Shown here: positions 3,001 through 62,449 of the stretch, in pieces | Layout: each line of letters begins with the position of its first letter | Position numbering within the stretch: the stretch's first letter is position 1 | Assembly (NCBI RefSeq): GCF_026151205.1 | Contig: NC_087073.1 | Span: 12,977,837-13,041,836, forward strand | Direction of reading: 5' to 3' | Source: Bolinopsis microptera | Taxonomy: Eukaryota > Ctenophora > Tentaculata > Lobata > Bolinopsidae | DNA: 64,000 nt | Position numbers and translations under genes: made by a program | Notes under the pieces: generated by a model | Database searches by the model: none | Told to the model about the DNA's origin: nothing | The model's input: the letters and a program-made list of their open reading frames with translations, nothing else

Positions 3001-6000
3001 TCTGATAGTCTGTTCTAGCATGCTGTATCAGGACTGTGCTGTGGCCGAGGAGGTCACGTGCGAGGTAGCATGTGGCCGGGGAGTCACGTGCAAGGTAGCA
3101 TGGCAACACGGTGTATTTCTGTCGCGTGATTCTAGTCACTTGCTCTTTACAAAGCAGTGCTCAGATATAATTTACCTGATATAGTCGAGACAGAGTGTAA
3201 ACGGGTCACCACCCTCCCTGAGAGTTTAGCCGATACAGAATAAACCATTAATTCTATTTCCTATTACAACTATAATATACAGTAAAACCCCAATTTATAG
3301 CGGAGTTTGGGAAAAGGTATTATTTTACCTATTATTTCGTAAATCGAGGTTTACGATAAATCGGGGTTTGATGCGCAATATCTCAGGAATGCTAGGTCCG
3401 ATTTTGATGCTTTTTTTTTCTAGTCGTTCGTCTCCAGCAGCTCTGTCGCGTATGATACAAAAACTGAAAAAAAAGAGTTTTGCCGCAGCAAAACGGGGCA
3501 CGGTAAATAGGGGTAACTGTATATAATATGTAAGAGTATGTGTGTGGATATGCAAGATATATATAAAACTGCAATTGATCTCCATTTTCTCCTCCATTAT
3601 TAACTCTTCTATTATTCTCTCCTCTTAATTAGAATTTCTGCGAAAGAGCCTGGGAAGAGATAATAGAAATTGAGGTTACCCTCCCCCCTCAATAAACGTT
3701 AGCACTGTAAAAGTCACTTACATCCTACAGTGTAATGTTCTATACACTTACACATGGACAACACAGCTCCAATCTCAATACTCAAAACGGTGCTGTATTG
3801 TCAAAACGACAGATATTATTATTATTAGACTGACTCTATTTACTTAATATCCAATCTAGAAACTTCCGTTCCGGTGTTTATGTTAAGTGTTCTGATTGAT
3901 TGATTATGTGTATGGACATTCTCCGTTTTGTCCACAATTAATACACGTGTACTGAATGATATTTTTGTGCGTATTGTGCGGTGAACTCTTATATAAACTA
4001 TTAGAGGATGTATGAGGTCTGTATGTGTGCCTATTTTTAGAGGTCTCGAAAGAACACTTTGCACGCTCCATTTGCATCAGTTCCATTGTTTGTGCTGGAC
4101 ATCATAGAAACCGACCCAATCCTGTTGTTCTTTGAGAACAACTATAATACCCATTGATTTCCTAGCAAATCTATGTACTATCCAGCTGCAGCCGTTAATA
4201 CGTACATCCACATTATGAGTATTTCAATGTGTTGCGTCATAGACGGACCTCATACGGTTTTACTTTCGATAAGGCAGCGAGTCCTCAATGTTCTATAAAT
4301 AGTTTTGAGTCTGAGCAAGCTGCATCTTTCAAGATTAACTAATAATCAAAAGGACTAAGCCCGACTCACCCCAGTGACCCCTTTTAATGCCTCTGATAAG
4401 TCGAGCGTAAAACACGAACAGACAAATTTCTTGGTCAATATGATACAGATCCACAAAAATCATCGGTAAATATTCAGCGTTAAATTTACTCGAAGATTTT
4501 GTAAGAATTAGTCAAATAATATAAAGGTTATGAAGCTAAAACACGCAGTCCTAAAAGGAAGTGTCCCTCCTTAAACTTGAATAGCTGGAAAATATGCAGG
4601 TCAAAGTCCACTGGGATTAAACCAGGATGCAACCTTTTAAACATGGGGAATTTAAAAACGGGACGTGAGAAATTCTTAGATCAAGACCAGGCCGTCGTCT
4701 TCTGACATACGTTATTCTGCAACGTGAGGAACATTTATGAGAGTGCCCAAGACACGTTACATTCACATATAAAATGGTGAAAAATAATTCTGGTTAATTA
4801 GCTTGCTATGGAAGTGTATCTCTTATGGGCTGCGGTCTTAATTGCTTAATTAGAACAGTACAGCTATATTATTTAGATATTAATTAGTATTCCTGAGTTT
4901 TAAGTCCACTTAATGTCCGATCGCCATGCCGCCCTCTTAAATGTTAATTAATACTTGAATTTTGGCCTGGCACCGGAGCTATGAATCTCACTTGCACTTG
5001 TCATGTCCATATATAAACATTGCGCTCGGGGCAGCCACTTGTAACTTAAACGATATATCGGTAGTGCTACCTGCTACCAGGTGATGCTGTGCCTAATTGC
5101 ATCGACCTCAATTCTGATATGATTGTGACTGAGCACTCCGCACAGTTTTAGTACAAAATACAAGAGTCTCAAGCAAGCTCAAACTCGATTCTTTCGGGTA
5201 TAATTAATTCATTCGTGTAAGTCAACCTAACGTGACGCGCGGTCGCATTCATCGTGGTAATAATCTAGTGCGCGTTACGTGCGCAGCACGTACGCCCACT
5301 TTCGTGGCTCGCTTGCTACTATAAATTGCTACATAGAAAGTCTGTCACTCTTACTCGCTTTTGGCTTTGCCTTGACCAGTCAATGGGTGTAAGCTTAATT
5401 ATTAATAACTGATAAGAATGTCACATCAATCATTATGTAGAAGGATATTATATATATGAATTTTGCGGAAATGTTCATCTGAAATCAAACACGGATAAGT
5501 TTACCCACGTGAACTTGGTCCAGTAAGTAGTAACCTAATCTAATAGTAAGCAAGCGTTAGGGGTTGCGCATCGATTATTTGTTTTATATTAGTGGTAAAA
5601 TGTGGCCAGTATTGCACATAATATCACTAAAGTAACATATTAGCATATATGCGGGAAATTACTTTAACTAAACTTTGAAATGGCTGATCATATCTTCGAA
5701 TAAACCAATCATTGTTGCGGTTTTGACAAACAGAGGCAAATTTTGTGACCGAAACGGAGATGAAATTTAATAAAAACAGCTAATATAAAATAATTTATCA
5801 AAATTTTGCTCGACTGACCTGTCCTAATACGTTGATTTATGGTTATTTTTCTGCAAGAAACTCAAAAACTGGTTAAATTGTAAAATTTCATTCAAACTGC
5901 TGGAGTTATTAATGTAATCCTAACAGCTGGTTGAAATTGTATGCGTTGTTTTGTCAGATAGTGACCAATTCGTATCTAAAAGTAGCTACATTCACAGTAT

Positions 6001-7358
6001 AAGCTTATATATAAGATTTTGTGGCGGCCCTATTGAGAATATCACAGATATGATTCCCTTGCGTTACAATGCAAGATATCCCGGTAATAAATAATAAGCC
6101 TTTTGGGAGAATTTTGAGATAAAATTGATACCTCGGACGTTACCCCATTAGTAACACTATATCATAGTATGTAGTATAACTATTAGTATAACTATATAGT
6201 AAATCAACAGTTGTCTAGACTCTAGGGCTGAACTGAAGCTGGGAGCTGGGTCTCATTGCGTGCGGAGTCCGAGAATCTACAGCAGTAATGTATCACTTAC
6301 TAAAATAATCAAGGAGTGTTTTAAGCTTTGATTTGTAGAGTTGGGAATTTAATCACACGTGGAGGAGATCATCTGCACACCCTGCACTAGTTTGAAGTCA
6401 GTTTGACTCACCTGAGAAGTTCATGAAATGCCTTTTTTTGGGGCTTCGTTCAGTTCGTAAAGACTGGGGGTTGTTGGAATGCGATGCCAATTTATTGGGA
6501 TACGCGACAACGATTTAACATTTATTAATATGTGTGATTGGTGGTTTCTGGAATTCAGCTAGCGGACTGTTTGATAGCCGTCACGTGTAGAGCTGCCATT
6601 ACATACCTCACTACCGGTTTCCCGCCCATTCTTCAAATTTTGACTGAAGTTTTAAGGTTTCATTGGTCAATAGTATTGATATACTATCGGTATCACAGGA
6701 AATGTATATGGCCTATTCTTGGAAGATAATTGGAAGGTTTCATTGGTATTGGCCCTTTTGGATGTCTCTACGGTATTTTCAGATATATTTATATCAGTTC
6801 ATCCTCTAGATTGTCGTCATCTGTCCCTGCGTTCATATTTTTAAAAATAAAAGTCCAAATTAATCATATTTTCTCATTGATCCTATGGCCATGTAGGCAT
6901 CTCTATTTTTCTTACGAAACTCTGAACTAAACAGGAAATTGCGTGTAATTTATCTCCCTAATTAGAAATCAAATTTAAAGGTCTTTATCTTTAAAGGTCT
7001 TTATCGGTCTTTATCGGTGTCTTCACTCGAGCAGCTGTATTCTATTATTCTGGCACCATTTTCCAAGTATTTCACTTCAAATATCGTTCCTGAAGAACCA
7101 CGTAATAAATCTAATAAAGGTTTACGTTCTAACTTTCAAAAAACCAAAGATACTAAACAAGATAATATAGAACAAGCTGTGCTGTGTGTATGTGTCGTGT
7201 TAAGACTGTTTCCTGTGTAAATGTATGTTTAAAGTACCTGTGTTTGACCAAGGTTGGCATGTGTGTGGCGTGTGTCCCACTGCTGCACGTGCTACTGCGC
7301 GAGTCCCACTCCCGCACGTGCTGTTAAATCAGATCACATCACCCCGAGTGTGTTACAG
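1..7358. other. Gene-free AT-rich stretch, probably intronic
   Basis: I see no exon with convincing splice sites here. The short open frames (for example 211-423, 2298-2570, 9074-9361 further on) have no recognisable domain and no splice context. Two imperfect copies of a GTCACGTGC-AGGTAGCATG segment lie at about 3054-3100. If the zinc-finger exons downstream are alternative 3' ends of one gene, this is the intron after its last shared exon. Confidence 0.4.
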
Positions 7359-7666
7359 ATTGGAGTGGGTGGTCGCCAGGGAACGGCACATGTACCAGTG
7401 GCAACGGTCTCCCAACATCTGGCGAGGAGAAGTTCTACCAGTGTCCCTACTGCCCTAAGATCTACACCACTACCCAGTCCCTACATCGCCACAAGCACTC
7501 CCACACTGGTACCAACATGAAGGCGTGTCCTCTTTGCGGCAAGACTTCTTACCGGGTTGACAACCTCAAGTCTCACATAAGGAACTGTTACAAGAAACGT
7601 CTCCGATTGGAGAACATGCCCGAGTTTACGGGAGAGAACGCGTGTACCCTGACTGAAAGTACTTAG
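7359..7666 (+). CDS. Alternative 3'-terminal zinc-finger exon A
   Basis: The exon starts after the acceptor TGTTACAG at phase 1 (two bases complete a split codon) and runs open to TAG at 7664-7666, 102 codons including the stop. A Gly/Ser/Pro-rich lead is followed by finger 1, C-x2-C-x12-H-x3-H (starts CPYCPKIY), and finger 2, C-x2-C-x12-H-x3-C (starts CPLCGKTSYR), then a polar tail of about 25 residues. Paired fingers of this kind in a terminal exon usually give DNA-binding specificity to one isoform of a multi-isoform transcription factor. The exon shares phase and design with the exons at 12480, 14133 and 15885. The common N-terminal part (often a BTB domain in such genes) is not in the window. 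A polyadenylation-like AATAAA lies at 8193-8198. Isoform usage is inferred. Confidence 0.85.
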
Positions 7667-10600: not shown

Positions 10601-12479
10601 CTACCATATAAACTAAGATTATCTCAAATTATGAATAATTAGCCTAGTACGGGTTTATGAGTAAAGATAATTATTGATAATATATTGTTACCTGCATGCT
10701 TGGCTATATGAAGACAAATAGTAATCGAGATAAGCACTCCCTGCCTCACTCCCTGAGGGTGGCTGCCATGTATTCGGCAAATTTGAGGGTTGGTAATAAT
10801 ATGACCCTGATGTTGTGTTCACGTAGTAAAACTACGTCAAATTACTCATTAAATTACTAATTAAGGGAGGGAGTGGTCAAGGAAATGCTTTAATCGATTT
10901 TATTTGCTTATCTAACCCCGAAAGAGAAAGAGAAGAAAGTTAAGATGACAAGATATAAAGCTTATTTCTTTATTCGTTGGGACAATGGTTCTTGTCATGA
11001 AGTTTGTGGTCACTGAACAGTGAACAGGTTTAGCAAACGTTCCAGTACAGATTATGTATTATTATTAAAGAGAAATGTTTCAAAATTTAACAACTGTACA
11101 TTTAAAAGATTTGATATACCTCACCACCCCCAGCCAGATAATTCATCAATATATTCCGATCTGTAAAGGGAATGTTCTAGAATATGTTCATTTTGCAAGC
11201 ATCGAACATTTACATTGTATGACCATGATGAAAGTTCCGATATGCAAGTTCAGGTTGTACTTCATATTCATAATATTGATCTGGTTATTTTGGGGCTGCT
11301 GAGGTATAACCTGGAGATATGTTATTCAGTGATCAAACCTTACGACGGTATAGACTACAACAAGGTGTCTGCATTAAGCTTCCAAAACCTGTATTTCCCG
11401 CTTACCAGTATACAGATGTACCAGTATAGTTATACAGATGTTCGCCGACTGTAAAATGACCCTGAAATGGCCATGAGATGGGCATTGTGTTCTGAACTTC
11501 GTCACTGTCCGTTACTGTCTGTTTCTTGAGAATATATGCTAAGTAACAGGGGCTGTTACTTTGGTACTGGATAAATAGCTGTAGACATCGGTAGCTGTAC
11601 ATGAAGAGGTATTTTACATGTCCTCTAAACGCACTTAACAAACAAAATCATCCAATTAAAGTTGGAATAATAAGTATTGATAAAAGAGTGTACTGTAGTG
11701 ATATAAAGCGTCAAATCCGGTTGAAAAGACTACGTCCACAGTCCGTGTAACAGTCCGGTGAACTATTCGTATACCATCCAAAATTTCCAGTTGCGTGACC
11801 CATCTACATACTGTACCAGAATGGTGTTTCTTGAGCAGGTTTTGGGCTAAAATGCGACATAATTGAAATAACTTCACGTATTTACAAATTTAAAAGAGCC
11901 CAAGTTATTATGTACCGTGATACTGCATGAATTAGTCATTTCAAACTATAAAATCTGATCTTGGCGTTTTATTTGTCTCCTGAAAATTTATCAAAACCAA
12001 AAAGTTAGCTAAATCAATTATGATAGATAACTAGTAAATGGGAAACAAAATGATAAAAGAAATGATAAAAATTCACCTTTAAAAAAATCTTACAACAATT
12101 TTAAAGAAGTATTTTTGTTTTTACTCTGACTTTGCATGTGTCTGCCTATTTCTTCTTAGCCTTTGAACTTTTGTGTGTGTTAACTTTAAAGTGGGATCCC
12201 CATCTATACTGAGATTCGTAACCTTCTGGTGTGTGGGAATGAAGAATCTTGTTGTCAAAGAAGTCCTATCTGGCGGCCCTGGGGAGATGCAGGGTCTCAT
12301 CTCCATTTCTCTGATCGCATGTGTCCGGGCTGTAACTCTCGTTAGCAGGGGGCATGAATACTCGTGGAAATGCCCGCAGGTTGGACGGCATGTGAGCATG
12401 ATCCTAGTTGCATGGGGCATGGTCCTGTGAGAGACTGGTTCGCTAGACGGTAGAGAACAACACCCCACTCCTCTTTCAG
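7667..12479. other. Non-coding interval between zinc-finger exons A and B
   Basis: No exon is supported. CACGTG sites follow exon A (about 7690, 7721, 7749) and another group lies at 9283-9310. A short run of repeated GGGGCCTATA(T/A)-type words is at about 10296-10350. Open frames at 9074-9361, 11075-11641 and 12121-12504 lack splice context or domains; the last is partly antisense to exon B. Confidence 0.4.
8193..8198 (+). terminator. Polyadenylation signal candidate for exon A
   Basis: AATAAA lies about 530 nt after the exon A stop, inside the word CTTAAATAAAGCGA. A near-identical word follows exon D at about 16348, which supports a shared 3'-end context. Confidence 0.45.
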
Positions 12480-12847
12480 CTGGCCGAGCAGGTCCCTCCT
12501 CCATTAAAGCGTTCCAGTGCGAGGAATGTCCCCGTTCCTACAGCAGCAAATACGCGCTGGTCCGTCACGCCCGCCAGCACACCAACTCCCACCTCCGCGC
12601 GTGTCCGTTCTGTGGCCGGACCAGCACCAGAGCCGACATCATCCGGGTTCACATGACCAACTGTGTGAAAAAGTATATCAGGAGTATAGAGGAGACAGCA
12701 CTCCAGATGCAAGGAGCTGAGAGTCTGGCAGTGGGCCAGGATCCCGACAGCTATCTCCTAGCTATCACCCGTCTGGCGGCCGAGAAGGAGGCCTCCAAAG
12801 AGTCCGGTCCTGCCCCCACCACTCAGGCCGGCTCTGGTGATATGTAA
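12480..12847 (+). CDS. Alternative 3'-terminal zinc-finger exon B
   Basis: The acceptor CTCCTCTTTCAG is strong. The exon enters at phase 1 and stays open to TAA at 12845-12847 (122 codons including stop). Finger 1 is C-x2-C-x12-H-x3-H (starts CEECPRSYSS). Finger 2 is C-x2-C-x12-H-x3-C (starts CPFCGRTSTR), the same CCHC form as in exon A. It has the longest tail of the set, about 65 residues, Ala/Glu/Ser-rich and probably disordered apart from a short helical stretch. It is locally GC-richer than its surroundings, as expected for coding sequence. Same strand, entry phase and two-finger design as A, C and D suggest mutually exclusive use. No clear AATAAA is seen in the next few hundred bases. 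Confidence 0.88.
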
Positions 12848-14132
12848 TAGTCACCATGGTGATACTGATATGTAATAGTCACCCAGACAACCCCCTTTTT
12901 GTTAGGTTAGCAACGTTACATAGATTGTGACATCGGGAAACAATTGTTAAATTCGAACTTTAGAGTTTAGGTTAAAACTGTATTTCAATTAATTCAACTC
13001 AATTTATCTTGTAAATGAACTAAGAATACGATACTTGCGAAAATTTTTAAGATTTTTATGGTTTTAATATTGTTTTAACAAACTCAGTCAATGACTGATA
13101 TGGCTGTATATATTTGCGAGATCTAGAAAATTGGCCAGGGTTTTTTTTCATTTTTGGGGAGCTTCGTGGCAAGAACGGCATGTGGCTTGATATTCATATC
13201 TAGACCCATGAAAAGTCCATTAAAATCCATTAAAATCTAATAGCCTTTAATCTTTATTACTTAACTAAAACTAAATTGGTTTCGTTCTTGTCGCGAGGAG
13301 AAGTTATTTCAGGCAGAAACCTCATTCCTAGTTACCTAATATTTCTAGGCTGCCTGGTTGCCTTATATTTCCTGGCCGATAAGAAGCTTTAGTTAAAATT
13401 CTAAAATTTTATTTACTATTTCGTATGGCGCTAGACTTAAGATTTATGGTTACTATAATTAGGATTTGCTGTAAATTACTTTGTAAATATTCTCGTTTAT
13501 GAATTTGAATTATATCTGTTCGAAAACCTTATGATTTAGGTGTTTTAAGGATTTTTAAAACGAATAAGGATTTAGAACTGTTGATAAACTTTTATTCTTG
13601 ATATTCTGTTTCTTAAAAATCAATACCACTTAAAGTAAATGAACGGTATTGAAATTTTGAATGCGACCTATGAAAATTGATTTTAATAGTTCAATTTCAT
13701 TCATCAAAACTAAATGTTGTGAGAGTTTGAAGAGTGGGATATTATAGAGTGGGATATTACTCTCAGGTTTGGATTTGCTGAAAGACTGTGGTTGGTATTC
13801 GTATGTGAACGGGCTGTTCGGTTAATATTCGCTGACTTTTAACCAGACTTAAGTATAAGTACAATTTTGCAAGATAAACATTTCTTTACTCGATGTATAA
13901 ACTTCTGACTAATCGCTGGGCTTTAAGAAGGTTTAACTAACATGATTCATCGCAAATCACAAAAGTATTAGATATGATCATTCCAGACCCTCATTTCTTC
14001 ATTGACATTGGTGTTCCGTGTCATTTCACCTTTACCCCCAAAATACCCCTCATTTCACCCTAATCCCCCTAATTGTACCCCACATTTCCCCTTGCCCCTA
14101 ACATCCTGAGTTCTGACTTGTGGGTCTTGCAG
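12848..14132. other. Non-coding interval between exons B and C
   Basis: AT-rich with no supported exon. The last ~100 bases before exon C form a pyrimidine-rich run (CCCC/TTTC words, about 14030-14100) that may serve its acceptor. Confidence 0.45.
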
Positions 14133-14365
14133 GTAATCCTCCTGCCAGGCTACCGGAGCCAGAGCCGGACGGTATGAACTACCGGTGTCCCCACTGCCCT
14201 AAAACCTTCCTGAAAAGGACGTGGTATCGTCACGTGGCTACACATGACCCCACCAAGACCCTGAGATGCCCGCTGTGTGCCAAGTACACCACCACTAGGA
14301 CTGACAAGATGAAAACACATTTGAATAGATGCTCGAGGGAGCTGGGCGTGAGGTTGCCAACTTAA
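14133..14365 (+). CDS. Alternative 3'-terminal zinc-finger exon C
   Basis: It follows the acceptor GGGTCTTGCAG, enters at phase 1 and ends at the stop at 14363-14365 (77 codons including stop). A short Pro/Glu-rich lead precedes finger 1, C-x2-C-x11-H-x3-H (starts CPHCPKTFLK), one residue shorter in the loop than the canonical x12. Finger 2 is C-x2-C-x12-H-x3-C (starts CPLCAKYTTT), the CCHC form shared with A and B. The tail is about 13 residues, the shortest except for D. Clear kinship in the finger framework (CP-C-K, then CPLC-K-x-x-x-x-R-x-D) points to exon duplication followed by divergence. An AATAAA lies at 14806-14811. Confidence 0.87.
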
Positions 14366-15884
14366 GAGTTAGACTTAAGGGGCCGTTCACAGATGTGATC
14401 AGTTTTCAGCCATTTTGAGACCCCTTCCAAAATCAGTGCAACTATTTTCAAACGTCCCCATACCCCTTAATGTAATAGGTTAACGGCCCCTTAAGATAAA
14501 TTTCCTGTGTTCGACGCGTTTTGTGTGTCCAATTTTCGTTCGTTTCACTCACGCTTGGCAAAGGAACAAATAATGTGTGTCTCAATCTCATGTGTCCTTA
14601 TTTAGCTTGCATCACTCACATTTATAAACATTAAAAACACCAATCTAACATTTATAAACATCTGCCTAGCATTTATAAACACCAATCTAATATTCATTTA
14701 AACATCAATCTAACATTTATTTATAAACTCAAATGGAGAAATCATAAACATCTATCTGAAATGTCTAACAAGTGATTCTGATAAGGGTTTATAATGTTTT
14801 GTTAAAATAAAAAATGTTTTTTAAAATAAAAAAACTAAAAGGACAATCATTTATAAATTCACTGCTTTACACTGACCACCCTCACAATCACCTGTATTAG
14901 AGAATAGTGTGATGTCGGAAGGAACCTTGCAAGGCTGTGTAATCTCGATATTATCTTAATAACTAGTTCGCTGAGTCTTATTTGCTATGGTTTTAATCTT
15001 TTTAATCGACCCCTTTTCTTTATTTTTAATTTTTGATACCACTGGAATATAAAATCTTAAAAACAATGACCGGATTGCCGATATGATTTTGTAAATTTGC
15101 ATGGTTTTTAATATGGCCTGGGTTGTTTTCGTTCGTTAGCCTATAAATATATTTCTATTAATTAAAGAAGGTTGAAAAACTAATGAGTGTAGGACGTTAT
15201 CTGATAACGTGATGGTGAACCACTGTCGAAGGGTTGGGCATGTGTCGTATCATGTCCCGTGGATTGTTCTGGACTGGCATGTATTTTTTGTATCAATATA
15301 AATATAATTGGAAAGCGTACCGGTTACAGGTACAGAGTACCTGTTACAGGTACAGAGTCTTGAAATCTTGTACGAGGGATGAAAAGTTATCTTCTTTGAT
15401 GTATTCTTAATTTTATATTTTACGATTCGACAATAAAACTCTTGAACCGCTAATTTTACGAGTATTCTTTATCTAAAATTTTCCTAAAATTATACGAAAA
15501 CGTAATTTCAATCATAATTTTCCGCACAATATTAATTAATTAATTAATTAGTTAATTCCAATACCATTCAGCAGAAGCAGTAGTTTCCCCACAAAGCACC
15601 CGCACAAAAGTTAACCACACAAAGTTAACACTTGATTCCCAGCTCCCTCACCGTCACATGCTGTGCCTCTCTCAGCAATGATTCGAAGCACCCGATCCTA
15701 ATATTAGCACCTCTCCTCGCCCCGATATCAGAGCCCCTCCTCCTCTGGACACGTGATCCTGGAGACACGTGATCCTCCTCTGGACACGTGATCCGATCCT
15801 GGGCAGGTGATCTGCCTCCCGCACTCACTGCCTCCCAGCCAACAGCAGCAGCTCTACAGACTCCGTGTACCAAACTCTTTCCAG
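14366..15884. other. Non-coding interval between exons C and D
   Basis: AT-rich with no supported exon. Several ACATTTATAAACA-type words recur at about 14620-14730, and a (TTAA)n run is at about 15531-15551. Just upstream of exon D three GACACGTGATCC words lie close together (about 15749-15794), a local cluster of the CACGTG motif. Confidence 0.45.
14806..14811 (+). terminator. Polyadenylation signal candidate for exon C
   Basis: AATAAA about 440 nt after the exon C stop, in an A-rich context. Candidate only. Confidence 0.35.
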
Positions 15885-16096
15885 GTGTACGAACTTTGAG
15901 CAGGACCAAGATCCAGTCTCCCTCTTCCCGGATCATCTGCCACATCTGCGGGAAGAGCTTCTCTGTTACTTGCAGTCTCAACAGACATCTCCGCATACAC
16001 ATCGGGTTTAAAGTTTCCTGTCCTGTCTGTAATGCACCCTTCTCCAGGAAGGATAACCTCATGAGTCATTTCCGCAAAGCTCATCAGCTCAAATAG
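15885..16096 (+). CDS. Alternative 3'-terminal zinc-finger exon D
   Basis: The acceptor ACTCTTTCCAG leads into phase 1; the frame is open to TAG at 16094-16096 (70 codons including stop). Finger 1 is C-x2-C-x12-H-x3-H (starts CHICGKSFSV). Finger 2 is C-x2-C-x12-H-x4-H (starts CPVCNAPFSR), a fully canonical C2H2, unlike the CCHC second fingers of A-C. The frame ends four residues after the last His. It is the last member I can find and the most divergent. AATAAA at 16351-16356 is a likely polyadenylation signal. Confidence 0.85.
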
Positions 16097-23999: not shown

Positions 24000-26820
24000 T
24001 TAGTCAAGTTCAATTCAAATTACTAATTGGTTGCAGGTAAAAAACTGTAAAATTTCGGTCTTGTGACAATATGATTTTGCAATTATATTCGGGATTTTGA
24101 CTCCCAGTACCTCAATTTGGTTTCATACCATCATCAATTAACTGACTAATTGGTTTCTGGGCAAAAAGTTCATCCAATCTGTCAAATTTGTGTTCAGAAA
24201 CTTTCATAATCGATATTGGGACAGAATTTTGAAAATACAACTTTTGGTTTTGTTAAATTTTCTGCTGTGGGCTTCCTCCGACCGAAATCAAACTTCCAGC
24301 ACCTCGATCGTGTTATTTGCCATCTATAGTTGACTTACTAATTGGTTGCGGGTGAAATAATCAGTAAAAACTGTAAATTTTCGGTCCTGGAAATTTCATC
24401 CTCAAAAACAGAAAATGGGACAGAGATTGGGACAAAGATTGGGACAGTATGATTTTGCAATTATATTCGGGATTTTGACTCCCAGTACCTCAATTTGGTT
24501 TCATACCATCATCAATTAACTGACTAATTGGTTTCTGGGCAAAAAAATCATCCAATCTGTCAAATCTGTGTTCAGAAAATTTCATATTCGAAAATGGGAC
24601 AGTATTTTGAAAATACAACTTTTGGTTTTGTTAAGTTTTCTGCTGTGGGCTTCCTCCGACCGAAATCAAACTTCCAGCACCTCGATCGTGTTATTTGCCA
24701 TCTATAGTTGACTTACTAATTGGTTGTGGGTGAAATAATCAGTAAAAACTGTAAATTTTCGGTCCTGGAAATTTCATCCTCAAAAACAGAAAATGGGACA
24801 GAGATTGGGACAATATGATTTTGCAATTATATTCGGGATTTTGACTCCCAGTACCTCAATTTGGTTTCATACCATCATCAATTAACTGACTAATTGGTTT
24901 CTGGGCAAAAATGTTCATCCAATCTGTCAAATTTGTGTTCAGAAAATTTCATATTCGAAAATGGGACAGAATTTTGAAAATACAACTTTTGGTTTTGTTA
25001 AGTTTTCTGCTGTGGGCTTCCTCCGACCGAAATCAAACTTCCAGCACCTCGATCGTGTTATTTGCCATCTATAGTTGACTTACTAATTGGTTGCGGGTGA
25101 AATAATCAGTAAAAACTGTAAATTTTCGGTCCTGGAAATTTCATCCTCAAAAACAGAAAATGGGACAGAGATTGGGACAGAGATTGAGACAATATGATTT
25201 TGCAATTATATTCGGGATTTTGACTCCCAGTACCTCAATTTGGTTTCATACCATCATCAATTAACTGACTAATTGGTTTCTGGGCATAAAGTTCATCCAA
25301 TCTGTCAAATCTGTGTTCAGAAAATTTCATATTCAAAAATGGGACAGAATTTTGAAAGTACAACTTTTGGTTTTGTTAAACTTTCTGCTGTGGGCTTCCT
25401 CCGACCGAAATCAAACTTCCAGCACCTCGATCGTTTTATTTGCCATCTAAAGTTGACTTACTAATTGGTTGCGGGTAAAAAAATCAATCAAAACTGTAAA
25501 ATTTCGGTCCTGGAAATTTCATTTTCAAAAACTGAAAATGGGATAGAGATTGGGACAGTATGATTTTGCAATTATATTCGGGATTTTGACTCCCAGTACC
25601 TAAATTTGGTTTCATACCATCATCAATTAACTGACTAATTGGTTTCTGGGCATAAAGTTCATCCAATCTGTCAAATCTGTGTTCAAAAAATTTCATATTT
25701 AAAAATGGGACAGAATTTTGAAAGTACAACTTTTGGTTTTGTTAAGCTTTCTGCTGTGGGCTTCCTCCGACAGAAATCAAACTTCCAGCACCTCGATCGT
25801 TTTATTTGCCATCTAAAGTTGACTTACTAATTGGTTGCGGGTGAAAAAATCAACCAAAACTGTAAAATGTCGGTCCTGGAAATTTCATCTTCAAAAACTG
25901 AAAATGGGACAGAGATTGGGACAATATGATTTTGCAATTTTATTCGGGATTTTGACTCCCAGTACCTCAATTTGGTTTCATACCATCATCAATTAACTGA
26001 CTAATTGGTTTCTGGGCAAAAAGTTCATCCAATCTGTCAAATTTGTGTTCAGAAAATTTCATATTCGAAAATGGGACAGTATTTTGAAAATACAACTTTT
26101 GGTTTTGTTAAGTTTTCTGCTGTGGGCTTCCTTCGACCGAAATCAAACTTTCAGCACCTCAATAGTGTTATTTGCCATCTATAGTTGACTTACTAATTGG
26201 TTGCAGGTGAAATAATCAATAAAAACTGTAAAATTTCGGTCCTGGAAATTTCATCTTTAAAAACTGAAAATGGGACAGAGATTGGGACAATATGATTTTG
26301 CAATTTTATTCGGGATTTTGACTCCCAGTACCTCAATTTGGTTTCATACCATCATCAATTAACTGACTAATTGGTTTCTGGGCAAAAAGTTCATCCAATC
26401 TGTCAAATTTGTGTTCAGAAACTTTCATATTCGAAAATGGGACAGTATTTTGAAAATACAACTTTTGGTTTTGTTAAGTTTTCTGCTGTGGGCTTCCTCC
26501 GACCGAAATCAAACTTCCAGCACCTCAATAGTGTTATTTGCCATCTATAGTTGACTTACTAATTGGTTGCAGGTGAAATAATCAATAAAAACTGTAAAAT
26601 TTCGGTCCTGGAAATTTCATCTTTAAAAACTGAAAATGGGACAGAGATTGGGACAATATGATTTTGCAATTTTATTAGGGATTTTGACTCCCATTACCTC
26701 AATTTGGTTTCATACCATCATCAATTAACTGACTAATTGGTTTCTGGGCAAAAAGTTCATCCAATCTGTCAAATTGTGTTCAGAAAATTTCATATTTGAA
26801 AATGGGACAGAATTTTTAAG
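24000..26820. repeat. Satellite array, 366-bp unit, about 7.5 copies
   Basis: The marker GGGATTTTGACTCCCA recurs at 24091, 24469, 24835, 25214, 25580, 25946, 26312 and, as a variant, 26678, giving spacings of 378, 366, 379, 366, 366, 366 and 366. The two longer units carry an extra GGGACA(A/G)AGATT-type segment of about 12-13 bp. Each unit appears to be a diverged dimer: the halves share ACTAATTGGTT, a CTGTAAAATTT/CTGTCAAATTT word and a AAATTTCAT(C/A)TTC word in the same order. Short open frames inside (for example 25273-25464 and 25639-25830) are the same repeat frame and not convincing genes. Confidence 0.95.
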
Positions 26821-28414: not shown

Positions 28415-31400
28415 CTGTGTGCAAATATGGGAGTTAGTTTCAGGAGCTTAAAATAGCGGAGTCAATTATGTAATGAATCATTTAAAGTGAGAATTTTCCA
28501 AGAATTAAAATGACGATCGTTGGGTTGGCAAATATTCAATCTTCAACCAACTCACAAATTGTATGGGGGAGTGGGGAGGAGAGCGTTTGAAAGAAGGAGA
28601 AGTCTTGAAGCTCTTCACGTTATCAGAGGTGTACGCGTGAATGTTCTCAATGGAGGAGCTGTTGCTGTTAGCTCCGTTGTTCTCCATAGGTTGTCCTCGT
28701 CTCCGGCTGATGGCTCGTTTGTTTTGGAACCAGTAGACCACAGTGTGGAGACTCAGAGACAACTTCTTGCACAGTTCCAGTCGGGATTCTCTGTCCAGGT
28801 ACTGGGATTTGCCGTATGCTTCCTCGAGGCCCTGAAGTTGCTTCTCTGTAAACACTGTCCTCCTCCTCCTCTTGAACGGAGGTGTCATCTCGTAATCTGA
28901 AAATATCCGTGTTACAGAACTTCTTGCACGGTCCTCACTATTTTCAAGAAGAAACGAGGTCAATTCAATTTCTCATTGGTTAAAATAAGTGCTTAAGTGC
29001 TCGTTTACATTGAACAAGGTGCAACTAACCGTTCATCAGCTCAGATCTATTATACAGACAATTCTTCGTTCCCATTAGGTGTTCGTTCACTGAAATTCAG
29101 ACTGTTATTTAAAAATACCCACTTAACAAGTTAAGCTCTAATAGCCTTGGGTCCAAACTTTGGGACAATCTGTACTAATGGTTCCGCACTAATCTGTACT
29201 TTAAGGTTACGTTTTACTATTTAGAGATCATGTCTGCAGATAAACGGAGATTATCTATATCAACTGTTGTCCTCCGGCGGAGCTGGGGTGCTGGACAAGG
29301 CACACTAATGGACCACGTGACCATCTCTACAGATCTGTTAATGTACTAGTGGACTAGCGATACTACTATCAACCCCTACTATTTAGAATAAATTAACAAT
29401 ACCATAACTATAACCATTAGAGGTACTAAAGTAATAATAAAGGGTAGTGGGTGGCGGCGGGGACGGTTTGACGTAAATGAACTGGTTTATTAAATTAGTT
29501 ATCGGAATTTTAGTGGGGATTGTTGGGACAGTGGTCCGCTAATGGCATAGCCGGCTACCCTTAAATAAATACTTAACTAGGACAATAAATGTGTTCACTG
29601 TATATCATCGAAACCATTAACCCAGCTTCTTTCGTCACGACCAGTAATGTTTTATTATTCTCATCACGTGATCTAATGCAACCAATCAGGAGACAGTATT
29701 TCATTCATCTGACCAATCAGAGTAGAGTATTTTATAACTAAGGGAGAGATGACAGAGCTCTGTACAAACAAGTATTGAAGGACTAATCTTTGCATACCAA
29801 GCGTTTAATGAGTATGTTTATATTCGCTAAGAGCCTGGGACTTTTGGATGGTTATTGCTTGCTACCAATCGTCCAGCCACCTGTCAACGGACCAGAACCG
29901 CAAATACACATATCATAGACCAGGATATCATGTGATACTCATGCAGCTACAATTATAATAGGTGTTAAATATGTTGAGAGTTTAATTATTTGCCAGGGAA
30001 ATTAGGAACGGAGAGATGCATGGTGGATTATTATTTAGATTATTTAGATACTACAACACCTGATACAATCACTAGGAGAATAAAACAGAGGCCTAGTATG
30101 TTCTCTGAATATCTTTGCTATAGCAGCAAAAATAATAGACCAGCCCCTCCCACGAAGTGTAGCTGGTTTGTTGACAATAATGCAAGGGCCGGGTCGTTCA
30201 CATATTACGTAACCACTGAGGGGAGGGAAGGCCGGGTTTCTAAATGATTACGCCAGGGGAGGTTTACAAATTGTACAACCTAGTGACTCAAAGTACGCAT
30301 AAGTACGTTTCAGAGTCCGTATAATCGTTTATAAACACTAAAAGGATAACAACTAGATCTGGGGTCAGGGGATATGTGGAGGAGGCGGGAAGGAAGGGAG
30401 GGGATATGTGGAGGAGGCGGGAAGGAAGGGAGGGGATATGTGGAGGAGGCGGGAAGAAAGGGAGGGGATATGTGGAGGAGGCGGGAAGGAAGGGAGGGGA
30501 TATGTGGAGGAGCCGTGAAGGTACTCACGGTTGTTGGAGTTAGAGTCAGGCTTGTTGTTCATGTGTTCATCTATCACACTGTCCACCAAACTCTCAATGT
30601 CAACTTCTCTGTTGACTGAGGAATCTGTCAAACCTCGCTTGCCCTGAATTTAGATTAAATCATTAACGGCTGTCCGATTTTCTAAGTACACAATGATATT
30701 CTGTTAAGGGATTGGCAAATTAGATACTTGTATTAATTGATTAATAATACCATAACTAACGTTGGAATGTCTCAGCATAGTCGGGATGTTAACTGGGGGA
30801 CTTGATCCACTTCTTATATAGTTCATTCCGTTCAGAAAACCTGAAATAAAATAAGTATTTAAAAAATACTATACCTCATGTGTGATTTCACTACGTTCTA
30901 CCCAATAGTCTACCTAAAAGTCTACTATAGTCTACCTAATAGTCTAATGCTACCAAATAGCCGAAAGGGGTTCGAAGTTCCCCTCAGCCTCCCACCCCTG
31001 TCATCCTATGCCGTTTATTTTAGCCCACATTAGTTTGGCAGGGATAGCACTTAAGATACTCGTTTCTATTAATTATGAAACTGTCTTAGGAAGTAAGAAG
31101 TTGACAGAAGACAGAAGACACCTCATACATATTACATACCTCCAACGTGAGGGAAAGTAGCAGAGGGTGAGGAGGTTGCTAGCAGAGGAGACGGAAGAGT
31201 GGTGGGAGTCAACATTCCACTGTTCCTCAAGCCATTAGAGTTCAAAGAACTCGAGTTCAAAGCACTGGTGTTGAGACTGGTGCTGACAAGTCCACCAGTA
31301 CACAGTCCACCGGAGGTGAGCAGAGTTGGGGTTGGTTTCAGGACGCTGTTAGAGCTCACAATATTGTGTCCTCGACCTGCCTGCTTGTTCGCCAGTTGCT

Positions 31401-50257: not shown

Positions 50258-50640
50258 ATATCAAATAGAGAGATGTTACAAGTACTTTATATCAAATAGA
50301 GAGATGTTACAAGTACTTTATATCAAATAGAGAGATGTTACAAGTACTTTACATCAAATAGAGAGATGTTACAAGTACTTTATATCAAATAGAGAGATGT
50401 TACAAGTACTTTATATCAAATAGAGAGATGTTACAAGTACTTTATATCGAATAGAGAGATGTTACAAGTACTTTATATCAAATAGAGAGATGTTACAAGT
50501 ACTTTATATCAAATAGAGAGATGTTACAAGTACTTTATATCAACTAGAGAGATGTCACAAGTACTTTATATCAAATAGAGAGATGTAACAAGTACTTCAT
50601 ATCTTTATATCAAATAGAGAGATGTTACAAGTACTTTATA
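50258..50640. repeat. 31-bp tandem repeat, about 12 copies
   Basis: Unit ATCAAATAGAGAGATGTTAC plus AAGTACTTTAT repeats every 31 bp (for example at 50291 and 50322) with very few substitutions; the penultimate copy is disturbed at about 50597. There are no spacers, so it is a minisatellite and not a CRISPR-like array. Confidence 0.95.
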
Positions 50641-53100: not shown

Positions 53101-53522
53101 TTACACTTCTTTAAATCCAACTTCTCTCTTCAATGATCTTTTAAGTGAACTAAACAGTAAACCCATAACTGCGTTTTTAGTAATCGCAAAGATAAACTCC
53201 TTGTGTGAACAACGTACTCGGCGACTATCTATCTGGTAGTTTCCATCGTTCAGTGCCTACCTTAGTGTATACTTATAGTCATAGTAGAGCAGCCTGAGGT
53301 AACCAACAAATGTAGTAAACTTGGAAGTGTAAAGTGCTGCAATAATTTCCTGATCCTGATCACACATGCCTGTCTTGTGTATACAAGTACACTTACCTGC
53401 CCCATTATATTATAAAACTCACCACATATTTCCTCAGCTGCTTTTCTTTCCGTATATAATCGCTTGATAGCCATGTTGTCTTTTCTCTTCCTTTTCTCAA
53501 TGCTGAGTTCAGGTTTGTCCAT
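53101..53522 (-). CDS. Three-exon gene for a 74-aa basic protein, function unknown
   Basis: The minus-strand exons are 53522-53423 (ATG; donor ATATGTG|GTGAGT, phase 1), 53336-53261 (acceptor TTATTGCAG, donor CTAAG|GTAGGC, phase 2) and 53149-53101 (acceptor TACTGTTTAG, ends TAA). Coding length is 225 nt and all phases agree. The protein is Lys/Arg-rich with a KRKRK cluster at residues 10-14 (possible nuclear signal), a likely helix over residues 17-33, and an aromatic stretch with YLRLLYYDYKY at 46-56, then a second basic segment. No signal peptide or membrane segment. I do not recognise a family. The unspliced 86-codon frame in the same place would instead use the donor at 53397, but that gives no phase-compatible next exon. 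A CACGTG at 53587 and ATTGG at 53670 lie just upstream. Confidence 0.6.
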
Positions 53523-55491: not shown

Positions 55492-55566
55492 GAGTAAAAA
55501 CAGAGTGTACTCCTGCTGTAGACGGACTCTTGGTTCAAGCAGCAAAAGTTATTCGGGATTCCACCG
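55492..55566 (+). CDS. Sushi gene exon, first half of a CCP module
   Basis: The acceptor ACATTCTACAG and the donor CCACCG|GTTAGT bound 75 nt, phase 1 in and phase 1 out. It encodes a CCP start (ECTPAVDGLL) and joins in phase to exon 60351-60489 as Gly-Ser-Gln. It could in principle join to any copy of the array acceptor. Confidence 0.7.
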
Positions 55567-58500
55567 GTTAGTGACCAGTTTAAAACTGGTTTACCGTCAT
55601 CATAACAATCGTAATTTTCGTAGTATTCTCACTCTGTCCTGTAAACCTACTACAAACCACCCTAGGTTCCCAAATGAGATCAGTAACCTGGGAAACAGGA
55701 ACAGTTCTCACTTTGTCCTGTAAACCTACTACAAACCACCCTAGGTTCACAAATGAGATCAGTAACCTGGGAAACAGGAACAGTTCTCACTTTGTCCTGT
55801 AAACCTACTACAAACCTCCCTAGGTTCACAAATGAGATCAGTAACCTGGGAAACAGGAACAGTTCTCACTTTGTCCTGTAAACCTACTACAAACCACCCT
55901 AGGTTCACAAATGAGATCAGTAACCTGGGAAACAGGAACAGTTCTCACTTTGTCCTGTAAACCTACTACAAACCTCCCTATGTTCACAAATGAGATCAGT
56001 AACCTGGGAAACAGGAACAGTTCTCACTTTGTCCTGTAAACCTACTACAAACCACCCTAGGTTCACAAATGAGATCAGTAACCTGGGAAACAGGAACAGT
56101 TCTCACTTTGTCCTGTAAACCTACTACAAACCACCCTAGGTTCACAAATGAGATCAGTAACCTGGGAAACAGGAACAGTTCTCACTTTGTCCTGTAAACC
56201 TACTACAAACCTCCCTAGGTTCACAAATGAGATCAGTAACCTGGGAAACAGGAACAGTTCTCACTTTGTCCTGTAAACCTACTACAAACCACCCTAGGTT
56301 CACAAATGAGATCAGTAACCTGGGAAACAGGAACAGTTCTCACTTTGTCCTGTAAACCTACTACAAACCTCCCTAGGTTCCCAAATGAGATCAGTAACCT
56401 GGGAAACAGGAACAGTTCTCACTTTGTCCTGTAAACCTACTACAAACCTCCCTAGGTTCCCAAATGAGATCAGTAACCTGGGAAACAGGAACAGTTCTCA
56501 CTCTGTCCTGTAAACCTACTACAAACCACCCTAGGTTCACAAATGAGATCAGTAACCTGGGAAACAGGAACAGTTCTCACTTTGTCCTGTAAACCTACTA
56601 CAAACCTCCCTAGGTTCACAAATGAGATCAGTAACCTGGGAAACAGGAACAGTTCTCACTTTGTCCTGTAAACCTACTACAAACCACCCTAGGTTCACAA
56701 ATGAGATCAGTAACCTGGGAAACAGGAACAGTTCTCACTCTGTCCTGTAAACCTACTACAAACCTCCCTAGGTTCACAAATGAGATCAGTAACCTGGGAA
56801 ACAGGAACAGTTCTCACTTTGTCCTGTAAACCTACTACAAACCTCCCTAGGTTCACAAATGAGATCAGTAACCTGGGAAACAGGAACAGTTCTCACTTTG
56901 TCCTGTAAACCTACTACAAACCACCCTAGGTTCACAAATGAGATCAGTAACCTGGGAAACAGGAACAGTTCTCACTTTGTCCTGTAAACCTACTACAAAC
57001 CTCCCTAGGTTCACAAATGAGATCAGTAACCTGGGAAACAGGAACAGTTCTCACTTTGTCCTGTAAACCTACTACAAACCTCCCTAGGTTCACAAATGAG
57101 ATCAGTAACCTGGGAAACAGGAACAGTTCTCACTTTGTCCTGTAAACCTACTACAAACCTCCCTAGGTTCACAAATGAGATCAGTAACCTGGGAAACAGG
57201 AACAGTTCTCACTTTGTCCTGTAAACCTACTACAAACCTCCCTAGGTTCACAAATGAGATCAGTAACCTGGGAAACAGGAACAGTTCTCACTTTGTCCTG
57301 TAAACCTACTACAAACCACCCTAGGTTCACAAATGAGATCAGTAACCTGGGAAACAGGAACAGTTCTCACTTTGTCCTGTAAACCTACTACAAACCACCC
57401 TAGGTTCACAAATGAGATCAGTAACCTGGGAAACAGGAACAGTTCTCACTTTGTCCTGTAAACCTACTACAAACCACCCTAGGTTCACAAATGAGATCAG
57501 TAACCTGGGAAACAGGAACAGTTCTCACTTTGTCCTGTAAACCTACTACAAACCACCCTAGGTTCACAAATGAGATCAGTAACCTGGGAAACAGGAACAG
57601 TTCTCACTTTGTCCTGTAAACCTACTACAAACCACCCTAGGTTCACAAATGAGATCAGTAACCTGGGAAACAGGAACAGTTCTCACTCTGTCCTGTAAAC
57701 CTACTACAAACCACCCTAGGTTCACAAATGAGATCAGTAACCTGGGAAACAGGAACAGTTCTCACTTTGTCCTGTAAACCTACTACAAACCACCCTAGGT
57801 TCACAAATGAGATCAGTAACCTGGGAAACAGGAACAGTTCTCACTTTGTCCTGTAAACCTACTACAAACCACCCTAGGTTCACAAATGAGATCAGTAACC
57901 TGGGAAACAGGAACAGTTCTCACTTTGTCCTGTAAACCTACTACAAACCACCCTAGGTTCCCAAATGAGATCAGTAACCTGGGAAACAGGAACAGTTCTC
58001 ACTTTGTCCTGTAAACCTACTACAAACCACCCTAGGTTCCCAAATGAGATCAGTAACCTGGGAAACAGGAACAGTTCTCACTTTGTCCTGTAAACCTACT
58101 ACAAACCACCCTAGGTTCCCAAATGAGATCAGTAACCTGGGAAACAGGAACAGTTCTCACTTTGTCCTGTAAACCTACTACAAACCACCCTAGGTTCCCA
58201 AATGAGATCAGTAACCTGAGAAACAGGAACAGTTCTCACTCTGTCCTGTAAACCTACTACAAACCACCCTAGGTTCACAAATGAGATCAGTAACCTGGGA
58301 AACAGGAACAGTTCTCACTTTAGCACTTTGTCCTGTAAACCTACTACAAACCACCCTAGGTTCACAAATGAGATCAGTAACCTGGGAAACAGGAACAGTT
58401 CTCACTCTGTCCTGTAAACCTACTACAAACCACCCTAGGTTCACAAATGAGATCAGTAACCTGGGAAACAGGAACAGTTCTCACTTTGTCCTGTAAACCT

Positions 58501-61500
58501 ACTACAAACCACCCTAGGTTCACAAATGAGATCAGTAACCTGGGAAACAGGAACAGTTCTCACTTTGTCCTGTAAACCTACTACAAACCTCCCTAGGTTC
58601 CCAAATGAGATCAGTAACCTGGGAAACAGGAACAGTTCTCACTTTGTCCTGTAAACCTACTACAAACCACCCTAGGTTCCCAAATGAGATCAGTAACCTG
58701 GGAAACAGGAACAGTTCTCACTTTGTCCTGTAAACCTACTACAAACCACCCTAGGTTCACAAATGAGATCAGTAACCTGGGAAACAGGAACAGTTCTCAC
58801 TCTGTCCTGTAAACCTACTACAAACCACCCTAGGTTCACAAATGAGATCAGTAACCTGGGAAACAGGAACAGTTCTCACTCTGTCCTGTAAACCTACTAC
58901 AAACCACCCTAGGTTCACAAATGAGATCAGTAACCTGGGAAACAGGAACAGTTCTCACTTTAGCACTTTGTCCTGTAAACCTACTACAAACCACCCTAGG
59001 TTCACAAATGAGATCAGTAACCTGGGAAACAGGAACAGTTCTCACTTTGTCCTGTAAACCTACTACAAACCACCCTAGGTTCCCAAATGAGATCAGTAAC
59101 CTGGGAAACAGGAACAGTTCTCACTTTGTCCTGTAAACCTACTACAAACCACCCTAGGTTCCCAAATGAGATCAGTAACCTGGGAAACAGGAACAGTTCT
59201 CACTTTGTCCTGTAAACCTACTACAAACCACCCTAGGTTCACAAATGAGATCAGTAACCTGGGAAACAGGAACAGTTCTCACTTTGTCCTGTAAACCTAC
59301 TACAAACCTCCCTAGGTTCCCAAATGAGATCAGTAACCTGGGAAACAGGAACAGTTCTCACTTTGTCCTGTAAACCTACTACAAACCACCCTAGGTTCCC
59401 AAATGAGATCAGTAACCTGGGAAACAGGAACAGTTCTCACTTTGTCCTGTAAACCTACTACAAACCACCCTAGGTTCACAAATGAGATCAGTAACCTGGG
59501 AAACAGGAACAGTTCTCACTCTGTCCTGTAAACCTACTACAAACCACCCTAGGTTCACAAATGAGATCAGTAACCTGGGAAACAGGAACAGTTCTCACTC
59601 TGTCCTGTAAACCTACTACAAACCACCCTAGGTTCACAAATGAGATCAGTAACCTGGGAAACAGGAACAGTTCTCACTTTAGCACTTTGTCCTGTAAACC
59701 TACTACAAACCACCCTAGGTTCACAAATGAGATCAGTAACCTGGGAAACAGGAACAGTTCTCACTTTGTCCTGTAAACCTACTACAAACCACCCTAGGTT
59801 CCCAAATGAGATCAGTAACCTGGGAAACAGGAACAGTTCTCACTTTGTCCTGTAAACCTACTACAAACCACCCTAGGTTCCCAAATGAGATCAGTAACCT
59901 GGGAAACAGGAACAGTTCTCACTTTGTCCTGTAAACCTACTACAAACCACCCTAGGTTCACAAATGAGATCAGTAACCTGGGAAACAGGAACAGTTCTCA
60001 CTTTGTCCTGTAAACCTACTACAAACCACCCTAGGTTCCCAAATGAGATCAGTAACCTGGGAAACAGGAACAGTTCTCACTTTGTCCTGTAAACCTACTA
60101 CAAACCACCCTAGGTTCACAAATGAGATCAGCAACCTGGGAAACAGGAACATTTCTCACTTTGTCCTGTAAACCTACTATAAACCTCCCTAGGTTCCCAA
60201 ATGAGATCAGTAACCTGGGAAACAGGAACAGTTCTCACTTTGTCCTGTAAACCTACTACAAACCTCCCTAGGTTCACAAATGAGATCAGTAACCTGGGAA
60301 ACAGGAACAGTTCTCACTCTGTCCTGTAAACCTACTACAAACCACCCTAGGTTCACAAATGAGATCAGTAACCTGGGAAACAGGAACAGTTCTCACTTTG
60401 TCCTGTAAACCTACTATAGACCAGAAGCACCGGACTTGGACCAATAACATCAGAGCTCTAAACTCAGTGGACCAGACCCGAATAGATTAGTGAGTATTGA
60501 GTAAGTGTGAACTAGGACTGTAAGTGTGATGGAGCTAGGAATTTATCAAACTTGTAGTTTATTTGATGGCCCTTTTTAGGGATGATTAAGCAAGACCCAG
60601 AAATTCAAGATTTGCAAATCTTTACTTTTAGCATAGTTTTAAAAAGGTGATACAGCGAGGAATCAAGATTTCTGTAAGCAGTGCTTTCTAATTAAATTGA
60701 ATAGAGTTTTACAATTTATAGTGTGGACAAGTTTGGAGAACAGAAACAGCAGATCGTGGTGAAGTGTGCCGGAAACGATTTTGTACCTGACATTTTTAAC
60801 GGACAAGATTCTTGGTGTGAAGGTTAGTTCAGTTATCAAATGTTGGAGTAGTTCGCTGTTTATTAGTCTCGTGATTGAAATAGCCAACCGGATATCAACC
60901 AGCTATTACTATTAGTTGGTTTAGTTTTTATTCTATCCTCTAGATGTGAGATGGAGGGGGATTGTTGGTTGTGATGTCCCCCAACATGACTAGTATCACA
61001 CTGGGGAGTGGGGGCTAAATTAATGCTACAAGTATAAATATCACACATAATGCTGGATGAATAGGTCTAGAAATGTTTCAAATTCATTCCACTGTGACCT
61101 TTAGCACTCAAAGAACGGTATGCGCATAGTAGCTCCATCAAACAACGGAATCCCTAAACGCACAATCAGCAGTGTTATCACTAATCACTGTTCAATAGGA
61201 TGACATGCTCCAAACTGCACATTTATGTTACCCTCATTTCTTGAAAATTCCGTAACTTCTAGCTCACGGACATTCCGTAATAATTACAACTATAAGTCCA
61301 CAGTCCGCAACTGCAAGTTTACTCTAAAACGGATTAAGTTGAAGGTCTGGGAATGGACAAGGTATTCCGTATTGTAAAATAACTGAAGGACGCACCGTGC
61401 TAAGTAACACTAGAGCTAATTTCACAGTTATCTAACATTTGTCCCCTTCAGTTGGCTGCGCCCCGATACCCGAGGATTATACTAACTTCTGGGCCCCAAA

Positions 61501-62449
61501 CTACACTCAACGTTCTATGGGTCTAGCCTCTAAGGGGGTTCCTATTGCAGCTGACGCTGACTTGGTAATATTATTACATACTTTGCTCTTGCAGTTGTAA
61601 GAACTTACACAATCATAACTTATCACCATGATATTAGCAAATCTTTACAATCGGAATCTATGTTTAAAAACTAGCTGTACAAAACCATCTTGCTGCATAA
61701 TCCAGTGCTCAGTCAGGGGTGTGTGCTGATCAGTCGAAAGCTTGAAAACGTGAATGGTTTTAATCTCCATATTAGTATTAATTTAGGAGCCATAATTTTA
61801 TATTTTCTCAAACATGATACACGCCTACTCGCCTAGAAACTTATACTATGGTTGCATCTCCAGTACCACTGTGCTATGTGCTCAGCTGACTCACATCGCT
61901 AAATTACAGGAGATAAGTGTAGAATGTAAGGACGGATACTCCCAGAAGATTGGGGATGTTGGAGAGAAAAACGTGTTCTGTACTGAGTTCGGGTGGTCGC
62001 CGATCCTTCTACAACTTATTAACTGTGCTAGTGAGTTTAACTGCAGAGTATTTTAACTGCAGAGTATCCAGAACCTTCCAAATTGTCATACATCCGTCAT
62101 CCACCCGACTACCATAAACTCACTCACAATCTGACTATTTATAGACTTTAACTCTTTCTGCCATATTAGTACAGTCGATATTTCAGCCGGCTGCCGGGAT
62201 TTAACAGAAGAAATTAAAAACGGGGTTGCAATATATACCCCCGGCACTGTGACCTTCTCAATAGGTGAACGAGTCAGCTTCAGGTGTGATCCCAACTTTA
62301 AGTTAGACGGGAAAGAGGTATTGACTTGTGACTCAGGGCAACGGTGGACGGGAGACGTGCCGGGGTGTGTTCCAGATGGAACTGTCAAGTCTCAGGGCTA
62401 CAGACTGATTTCCAGTTTGTGGCTTGGTTTCCTGCTTTATTTACATTAA
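55492..62449 (+). CDS. Sushi/CCP-domain surface protein gene (3' part; span of exons)
   Basis: The exons are 55492-55566, 60351-60489, 60722-60822, 61452-61564, 61910-62030 and 62145-62449, all GT-AG and phase-consistent. They encode at least three CCP (sushi) modules of the four-cysteine type with the characteristic Gly/Tyr/Trp positions, then a short linker and a C-terminal hydrophobic stretch (about WLGFLLYLH) with no cytoplasmic tail, as in GPI-anchor signals. Such modules act outside the cell in protein-protein contacts, for example in complement regulators and adhesion proteins. The signal peptide and any earlier modules lie upstream and are not identified. The intron 55567-60350 is almost entirely a 79-bp tandem array derived from the second exon listed. 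Confidence 0.8.
55619..60415 (+). repeat. 60-copy 79-bp array of exon-start plus 3' splice site
   Basis: The acceptor word CCCTAGGTTC (T of TAG at 55663, 55742 ... 60348) occurs in a register of 59 intervals that sum exactly to 59 x 79 plus three 8-bp insertions. Each unit is 65 nt matching the start of exon 60351-60489 (from GTTCACAAATGAGATCAG to CCTGTAAACCTACTA) plus about 14 nt ending CCTAG. Variants are few: CAC/CTC before CCTAG, TTCAC/TTCCC, CTCTG/TTTG. The three 8-bp insertions (ACTTTAGCACTTTG) lie at about 58318, 58957 and 59677. A unit of 79 is not a multiple of 3, and read-through from any copy meets a stop within the next copy, so it is not a protein repeat. Confidence 0.97.
60351..60489 (+). 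CDS. Sushi gene exon, source of the 79-bp array
   Basis: The last acceptor of the array (ACCACCCTAG) opens this exon; it continues past the repeat at CTACTATAGACC to the donor GATTA|GTGAGT, 139 nt, phase 1 in and phase 2 out. It encodes the middle of a CCP module (SVTWETGTVLTLSCKP), as expected for the strand leading to the second Cys, and then a polar stretch. Its first ~65 nt are the sequence multiplied upstream. Confidence 0.8.
60722..60822 (+). CDS. Sushi gene exon, end of first CCP module
   Basis: The acceptor CAATTTATAG and the donor TGTGAAG|GTTAGT bound 101 nt, phase 2 in and phase 1 out. It encodes QQIVVKCAGNDF ... SWCE, containing the third Cys and the Trp-x-Cys end of a CCP module. 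Confidence 0.8.
61452..61564 (+). CDS. Sushi gene exon, start of second CCP module
   Basis: The acceptor CCCCTTCAG and the donor GACTTG|GTAATA bound 113 nt, phase 1 in and phase 0 out. It encodes GCAPIPEDYTNFW and the loop region, with a potential N-glycosylation site (NYT). Confidence 0.8.
61910..62030 (+). CDS. Sushi gene exon, end of second CCP module
   Basis: The acceptor GCTAAATTACAG and the donor GTGCTA|GTGAGT bound 121 nt, phase 0 in and phase 1 out. It encodes ISVECKDGYSQKIGD, a Phe-Cys and a Trp before the final Cys, the usual CCP pattern. The longer open frame from 61814 includes intron sequence. Confidence 0.8.
62145..62449 (+). CDS. Sushi gene last exon: CCP module and GPI-like tail
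   Basis: The acceptor CTATTTATAG enters at phase 1; the split codon completes as Asn. The frame is open to TAA at 62447-62449. It encodes an extra Cys-containing lead (NSFCHISTVD), then a full CCP module from GCRDL through GERVSFRCDPNFKLDG to RWTGDVPGC, then a short spacer and a hydrophobic C-terminus (SSLWLGFLLYLH) that looks like a GPI-anchor signal. A short single-pass anchor without tail is the alternative. Confidence 0.88.

Follow-up and report, generated by a model that had tools for sequence, protein, structure and literature searches.

How a spliceosome settles on the proper acceptor when the intron in front of an exon consists almost entirely of copies of that exon's own beginning is the question raised by a gene of the ctenophore Bolinopsis microptera, LOC134826805, which NCBI lists as uncharacterized. 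We analysed it within a window of 64,000 nt (contig NC_087073.1, positions 12,977,837 to 13,041,836). A six-exon model (Table 1) translates into the protein of this gene, P0001, at 278 out of 278 residues. The Mnemiopsis protein P0002 has 76% identity to P0001 over 274 aligned positions and also contains the exon that follows the array, and the stretch from exon b to exon c is single copy in the assembly. Two changes to the model were tried and rejected: exon b could be spurious, in that an alternative donor of exon a joins exon c in frame, but P0001 and P0002 both contain exon b; and a small extra exon guessed near 60945, between exons c and d, was refuted by the exact model of P0001.

The gene probably begins with a signal-peptide exon upstream of the six. 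A relaxed search (for hydrophobic stretches that begin at an ATG and run to a phase-1 donor) detected this exon, which a stricter search had missed, and when joined to position 55492 it reads MLSFLFLFSMLSSGVKTEC, resembling MLIFWFLCSVLQSSGVKSEC of P0002. The NCBI model starts instead at the ATG at 55467, within the intron adjoining this putative exon. P0001 passes the cut-off of the Sushi family (PF00084) with 50.2 bits in one stretch, residues 198-252, and the region of the array exon taken alone has no PF00084 match. The preliminary description of this DNA had the last acceptor giving a full CCP protein: the protein agrees residue for residue, but among its domains only the third (and last) passes Pfam Sushi. 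The first, cysteine-rich domain, which holds the array exon and is unscored by Pfam, may be of the CCP type. The hydrophobic tail resembles a GPI-anchor signal, suggesting that the protein is probably GPI-anchored; the product is a probable surface protein.

Table 1. Features of the array-bearing gene (positions are those of the window)
Feature	Position	Strand	Basis or remark
Candidate first coding exon	53473..53512	+	putative signal peptide MLSFLFLFSMLSS and first base of Gly; absent from NCBI model
Model exons reproducing P0001	55467-55566, 60351-60489, 60722-60822, 61452-61564, 61910-62030, 62187-62449	+	exact translation match
Exon a	55492..55566	+	donor CCG/GTTAGT
Array intron, 4,784 nt, phase 1, at residue 34	55567..60350	+	exact protein match of exon model
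Sole non-repeat part of array intron, 59 nt	55567..55625	+	
Copy with lost acceptor AG (first exon-like base)	55982	+	acceptor-phased alignment of copies
Exon b, 139 nt	60351..60489	+	begins with the last array copy (66 nt, 60351-60416); donor TTA/GTGAGT
Exon c	60722..60822	+	exon model
Exon d	61452..61564	+	exon model
Exon e	61910..62030	+	exon model
Exon f	62187..62449	+	Sushi domain PF00084, 45.4 bits (exon translation); hydrophobic tail

Other features of the window were recorded along the way. TRF reports a 366-bp tandem array (7.5 copies, 24061-26816) and, upstream of the gene, a 31-bp tandem array (12.1 copies, 50258-50640). By eye, a homeodomain-like open frame lies at 28508-28972 on the minus strand, and open frames with C2H2 zinc-finger-like spacing lie at 7328-7663, 12431-12844, 14117-14362 and 15773-16093 on the plus strand. 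Rfam and tRNA scans of the 64-kb window gave no matches.

The array itself was found by TRF at 55626..60423 (plus strand), with a period of 79, 60.4 copies and 97% matches. It occupies 4,725 nt of the 4,784-nt intron, bearing out the claim that the intron is almost wholly a 79-bp array. Each unit joins 13 nt of the intron end (CAAACCACCCTAG) to the opening 66 nt of the exon that follows, an anatomy that had been described correctly, with the exon part put at about 65 nt. Phasing at the acceptor gives 60 copies, the final one being the start of the coding exon; from anchor to anchor, 57 out of 60 units measure 79 bp and three measure 87 bp, and 12 unit types can be told apart. AG/GT is kept at 59 out of 60 acceptors, so the transcript does contain some 60 near-identical 3' splice sites in one phase, as proposed. 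Among the exon parts of the 59 upstream copies, 30 match the coding 66 nt exactly, 26 have one to three base differences and three have an 8-bp insertion. A branch-point-like CCTACTAC upstream of each acceptor derives from the exon part of the preceding copy, and the acceptor region of the working exon therefore lies inside the array.

The order of the unit types tells something of how the array grew. A 10-unit pattern at unit 37 recurs at unit 46 (none of 500 shuffles reaches 10, the longest in shuffles being 7); a 9-unit block has thus been duplicated, and the array has grown partly by multi-unit duplication. Because the array contains such a block, it is plausible that its length varies between individuals. 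The duplicated block lies in the interior, the rare types J and K are found near the 3' end, and the last full copy is of the majority type. Two exon variants common to many copies (17 and 10 copies) are synonymous, and three singletons are nonsynonymous (V7A, W9stop and V14F; the three insertion copies are excluded from this count, and 195 changes are possible, 50 of them synonymous), a synonymous bias that is suggestive only. A hairpin over the acceptor was also considered and dropped (fold z = -1.41; folds of equal or greater stability in 15 out of 200 shuffles).

The array is confined to this place. A 40-nt core of the unit, allowing up to three mismatches, has 60 matches in the assembly of 264,652,675 bases, all within the array and none elsewhere (the reversed control gave none). 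For a dispersed satellite or transposon, this search of the whole assembly thus found no copies outside the array, and the array pattern had no match in viral contigs.

Arrays of this kind are called mirages, a name reportedly introduced in a paper in NAR in 2002. In two reports on lancelets, mirages are minisatellites made of tandem copies of intron-exon boundaries, are found in the genes Adh3, TnC, PGBD5 and those of the globins BflGb6 and BflGb9, and are reported as not disturbing splicing (PMC3087553, PMC3902484). According to the first of these, the BflGb6 mirage has six and three units in two haplotypes, RT-PCR suggested regular splicing, and a model in which boundary arrays create new intron positions was proposed for lancelet globins (PMC3087553). 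The Bolinopsis array belongs to this known kind: its unit spans a splice boundary (the identity of the exon being given by the exact protein match), and nearly all of its copies carry AG/GT. The BflGb6 mirage, too, has units made of the 3' end of one intron and the 5' part of the exon after it, and the lancelet mirages likewise keep AG/GT in many copies and exist in acceptor-side and donor-side forms. The array is larger than the lancelet globin case (about 60 copies of a 79-bp unit, versus six and three units of 150-160 bp in BflGb6), and it differs from the lancelet mirages in its ctenophore host and in its recurrence at several exons of one genome. We found no report of boundary arrays in ctenophores in the literature searched, whose coverage lay mostly outside subscription journals.

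Two further cases are comparable in part. The human interferon-induced gene 6-16 (IFI6/G1P3) reportedly has a minisatellite with multiple splice donors in its transcript (NAR 1995); that repeat also multiplies the splice sites of a transcript, but on the donor side and in human. In the potato RdRp gene, an intron is said to have been gained by tandem genomic duplication (the AGGT model). This model likewise involves tandem duplication of AG/GT-holding sequence adjoining an intron; in Bolinopsis, however, the donor lies outside the unit, and the non-repeat head of the intron is no more similar to the unit than chance allows (437 out of 500 shuffles score as well), so a simple AGGT duplication, with donor and acceptor in two copies of one segment, does not describe this intron. 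Exon a and the remainder of exon b resemble the unit no better than shuffles do (189 and 310 of 500, respectively).

We consider it likely, with a probability of about three in four, that the array is a giant mirage: a minisatellite that started at a 3' intron boundary of a single-copy, sushi-containing ctenophore gene, grew by repeat expansion and is tolerated, with splicing directed to the last acceptor. The minisatellite would have expanded from the 3' boundary, with the last copy remaining the coding exon, and the spliceosome would pick the last acceptor because only there does a good donor follow 139 nt downstream, the earlier copies having none. The array would be tolerated rather than used, and its length would be expected to vary. 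In this reading it would also be one example of a process, common in this genome, by which splice boundaries are duplicated and introns can be created or moved. Use of the last acceptor is suggested by the predicted protein and by the conservation of the exon in Mnemiopsis.

The strengths of the competing donors are in line with this choice. Scored with weights that were not trained on ctenophores, the five native donors reach 2.46, 1.49, 4.53, -0.18 and 3.11, the donor-like CCT/GTAAAC of the units (the pseudo-donor) scores -1.95, below all five, and CCG/GTTCAC, the donor regenerated when exon a is joined to an AG/GT copy, scores -6.08, the lowest among those compared. Given these low scores of the alternative donors, a choice of the last acceptor through its own downstream donor is the simplest account.

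It is unlikely, if less so than the readings that follow, that the array serves as a length-dependent splicing switch in which early acceptors give truncated or decayed products. The raw material for such a switch is present: all but one acceptor have AG/GT, a mere 99 nt separate the donor from the nearest acceptor (55567 to 55665), and with each of the 59 upstream copies a reading frame coming from exon a would end within 74 codons. When exon a is joined to the copies, the stop comes after 45 codons in 53 out of 60 (as had been predicted for the earlier acceptors), after 74 in five and after eight in one (58194); the last copy, if read through, gives 46 codons with a stop that overlaps the donor of exon b, and the frame continues solely via that donor. 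But the conservation of AG/GT may merely reflect young copies, the lancelet mirages are reported to leave splicing undisturbed (PMC3087553, PMC3902484), and a like anatomy at several unrelated exons, on donor and acceptor sides (see below), argues for a mutational process over a tuned device.

It is far less probable that the copies act as a protein-diversifying cassette, contributing 54-nt in-frame mini-exons that lengthen the first domain. The distance from acceptor to CCT/GTAAAC is indeed 54 nt, a multiple of three, in 57 out of 60 copies (62 nt in the other three), so the in-frame pseudo-exon of the preliminary description exists in the sequence. The motif, however, is also dictated by codons for Ser-Cys-Lys-Pro that are conserved in the real exon, neither P0001 nor P0002 has such inserts, and the peptide encoded by the array has no relative in the protein search (none in the database has three 5-residue words in common with it); the low score of the pseudo-donor makes this reading weak. 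We give as little credence to recursive splicing, with AG/GT junctions as ratchet points that walk the splice to the last copy: exon a joined to any AG/GT copy does leave a GT again, but a recursive site or zero-length exon with a strong regenerated donor is absent by the weights used (-6.08 versus -0.18 to 4.53 for native donors). An assembly artefact is the least probable explanation, for although long homogeneous arrays can be mis-sized and the copy number may be off, the twelve unit types stand in a structured order with a duplicated block and the junctions with unique sequence are clean.

The introns of relatives bear on where the array intron came from. In the window gene, introns are at residues 34 (the array intron), 80, 113-114, 151 and 191-192. 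Two paralogues, L027 (55% identical to the window gene product over residues 58-113) and L029, both have an intron at residue 51 and have the one at 113-114 in common with the window gene; they lack introns at 34 and 80, and their next intron is at 158 and 160. Three further relatives are single-exon frames. As the residue-34 intron is absent from all of these, the array intron is peculiar to the window gene among the resolved relatives, which is what a creation or relocation of introns by boundary arrays would predict; the intron at residue 34 may thus have been gained or relocated.

Similar arrays are found elsewhere in the genome. In the paralogue L027, exon d carries 18 acceptors in tandem with a spacing of about 39 bp, and the coding one is the last of them; this paralogue also has a two-copy donor duplication. 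We inspected 20 sushi loci from the top of the domain list (150 of 815 candidates having been scored), and boundary-spanning arrays, recognised by eye and non-blind (arrays without a placeable exon being left unclassed), are present in four of them: five acceptor copies, two donor copies and three donor copies with a fourth exon copy lacking GT in L040; six acceptor copies (AG in five) and a diverged donor-like array of five in L048; two donor copies in L035; and, a weak case, four acceptor copies with 7 nt of exon in L036. The three arrays of L040 all fall within roughly 3.5 kb (1-3481) of a single sushi gene region. Among trypsin loci (47 matches), one of four inspected, L052, has two acceptor arrays, with at least 15 copies at 1-683 (running past the end of the stretch) and seven copies at 1670-2002.

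An automatic copy test on 42 sushi exons, in contrast, did not show a preference of arrays for exon edges. With 80-nt flanks, any nearby copy was found for eight out of 42 exons and a copy of at least 9 nt of the domain for one, compared with 45 out of 176 random segments. With extended frames the test flagged four of the 42 exons, two of which are boundary arrays (L040 and L048) and two intronic repeats on inspection (L030 and L033); it missed the arrays of L035 and L036 and the first two of L040, whose exons are outside the 42 hits. Large arrays of 42-bp and 29-bp repeats lie beside sushi exons in L030 (1-1742 and 4569-6501). In a genome this rich in minisatellites, chance alone is enough to explain why some of them overlap exon edges.

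It is a tentative and rather doubtful proposal that splice boundaries are commonly and continually amplified in this genome, leaving tens of decoy sites at the exon edges of many genes and driving intron relocation, and that the residue-34 intron was made or moved by its array while the paralogues keep the one at residue 51.

Boundary-spanning minisatellites are thus not restricted to lancelets but occur in a ctenophore, whose lineage is often regarded as the earliest branch of the animals. Sixty acceptors in one intron strain a simple 'first AG' rule and provide a natural experiment on the way in which the spliceosome passes over decoys. Should what was seen in sushi and trypsin genes recur across the whole genome, Bolinopsis would be a living model in which to observe how introns are moved or created.
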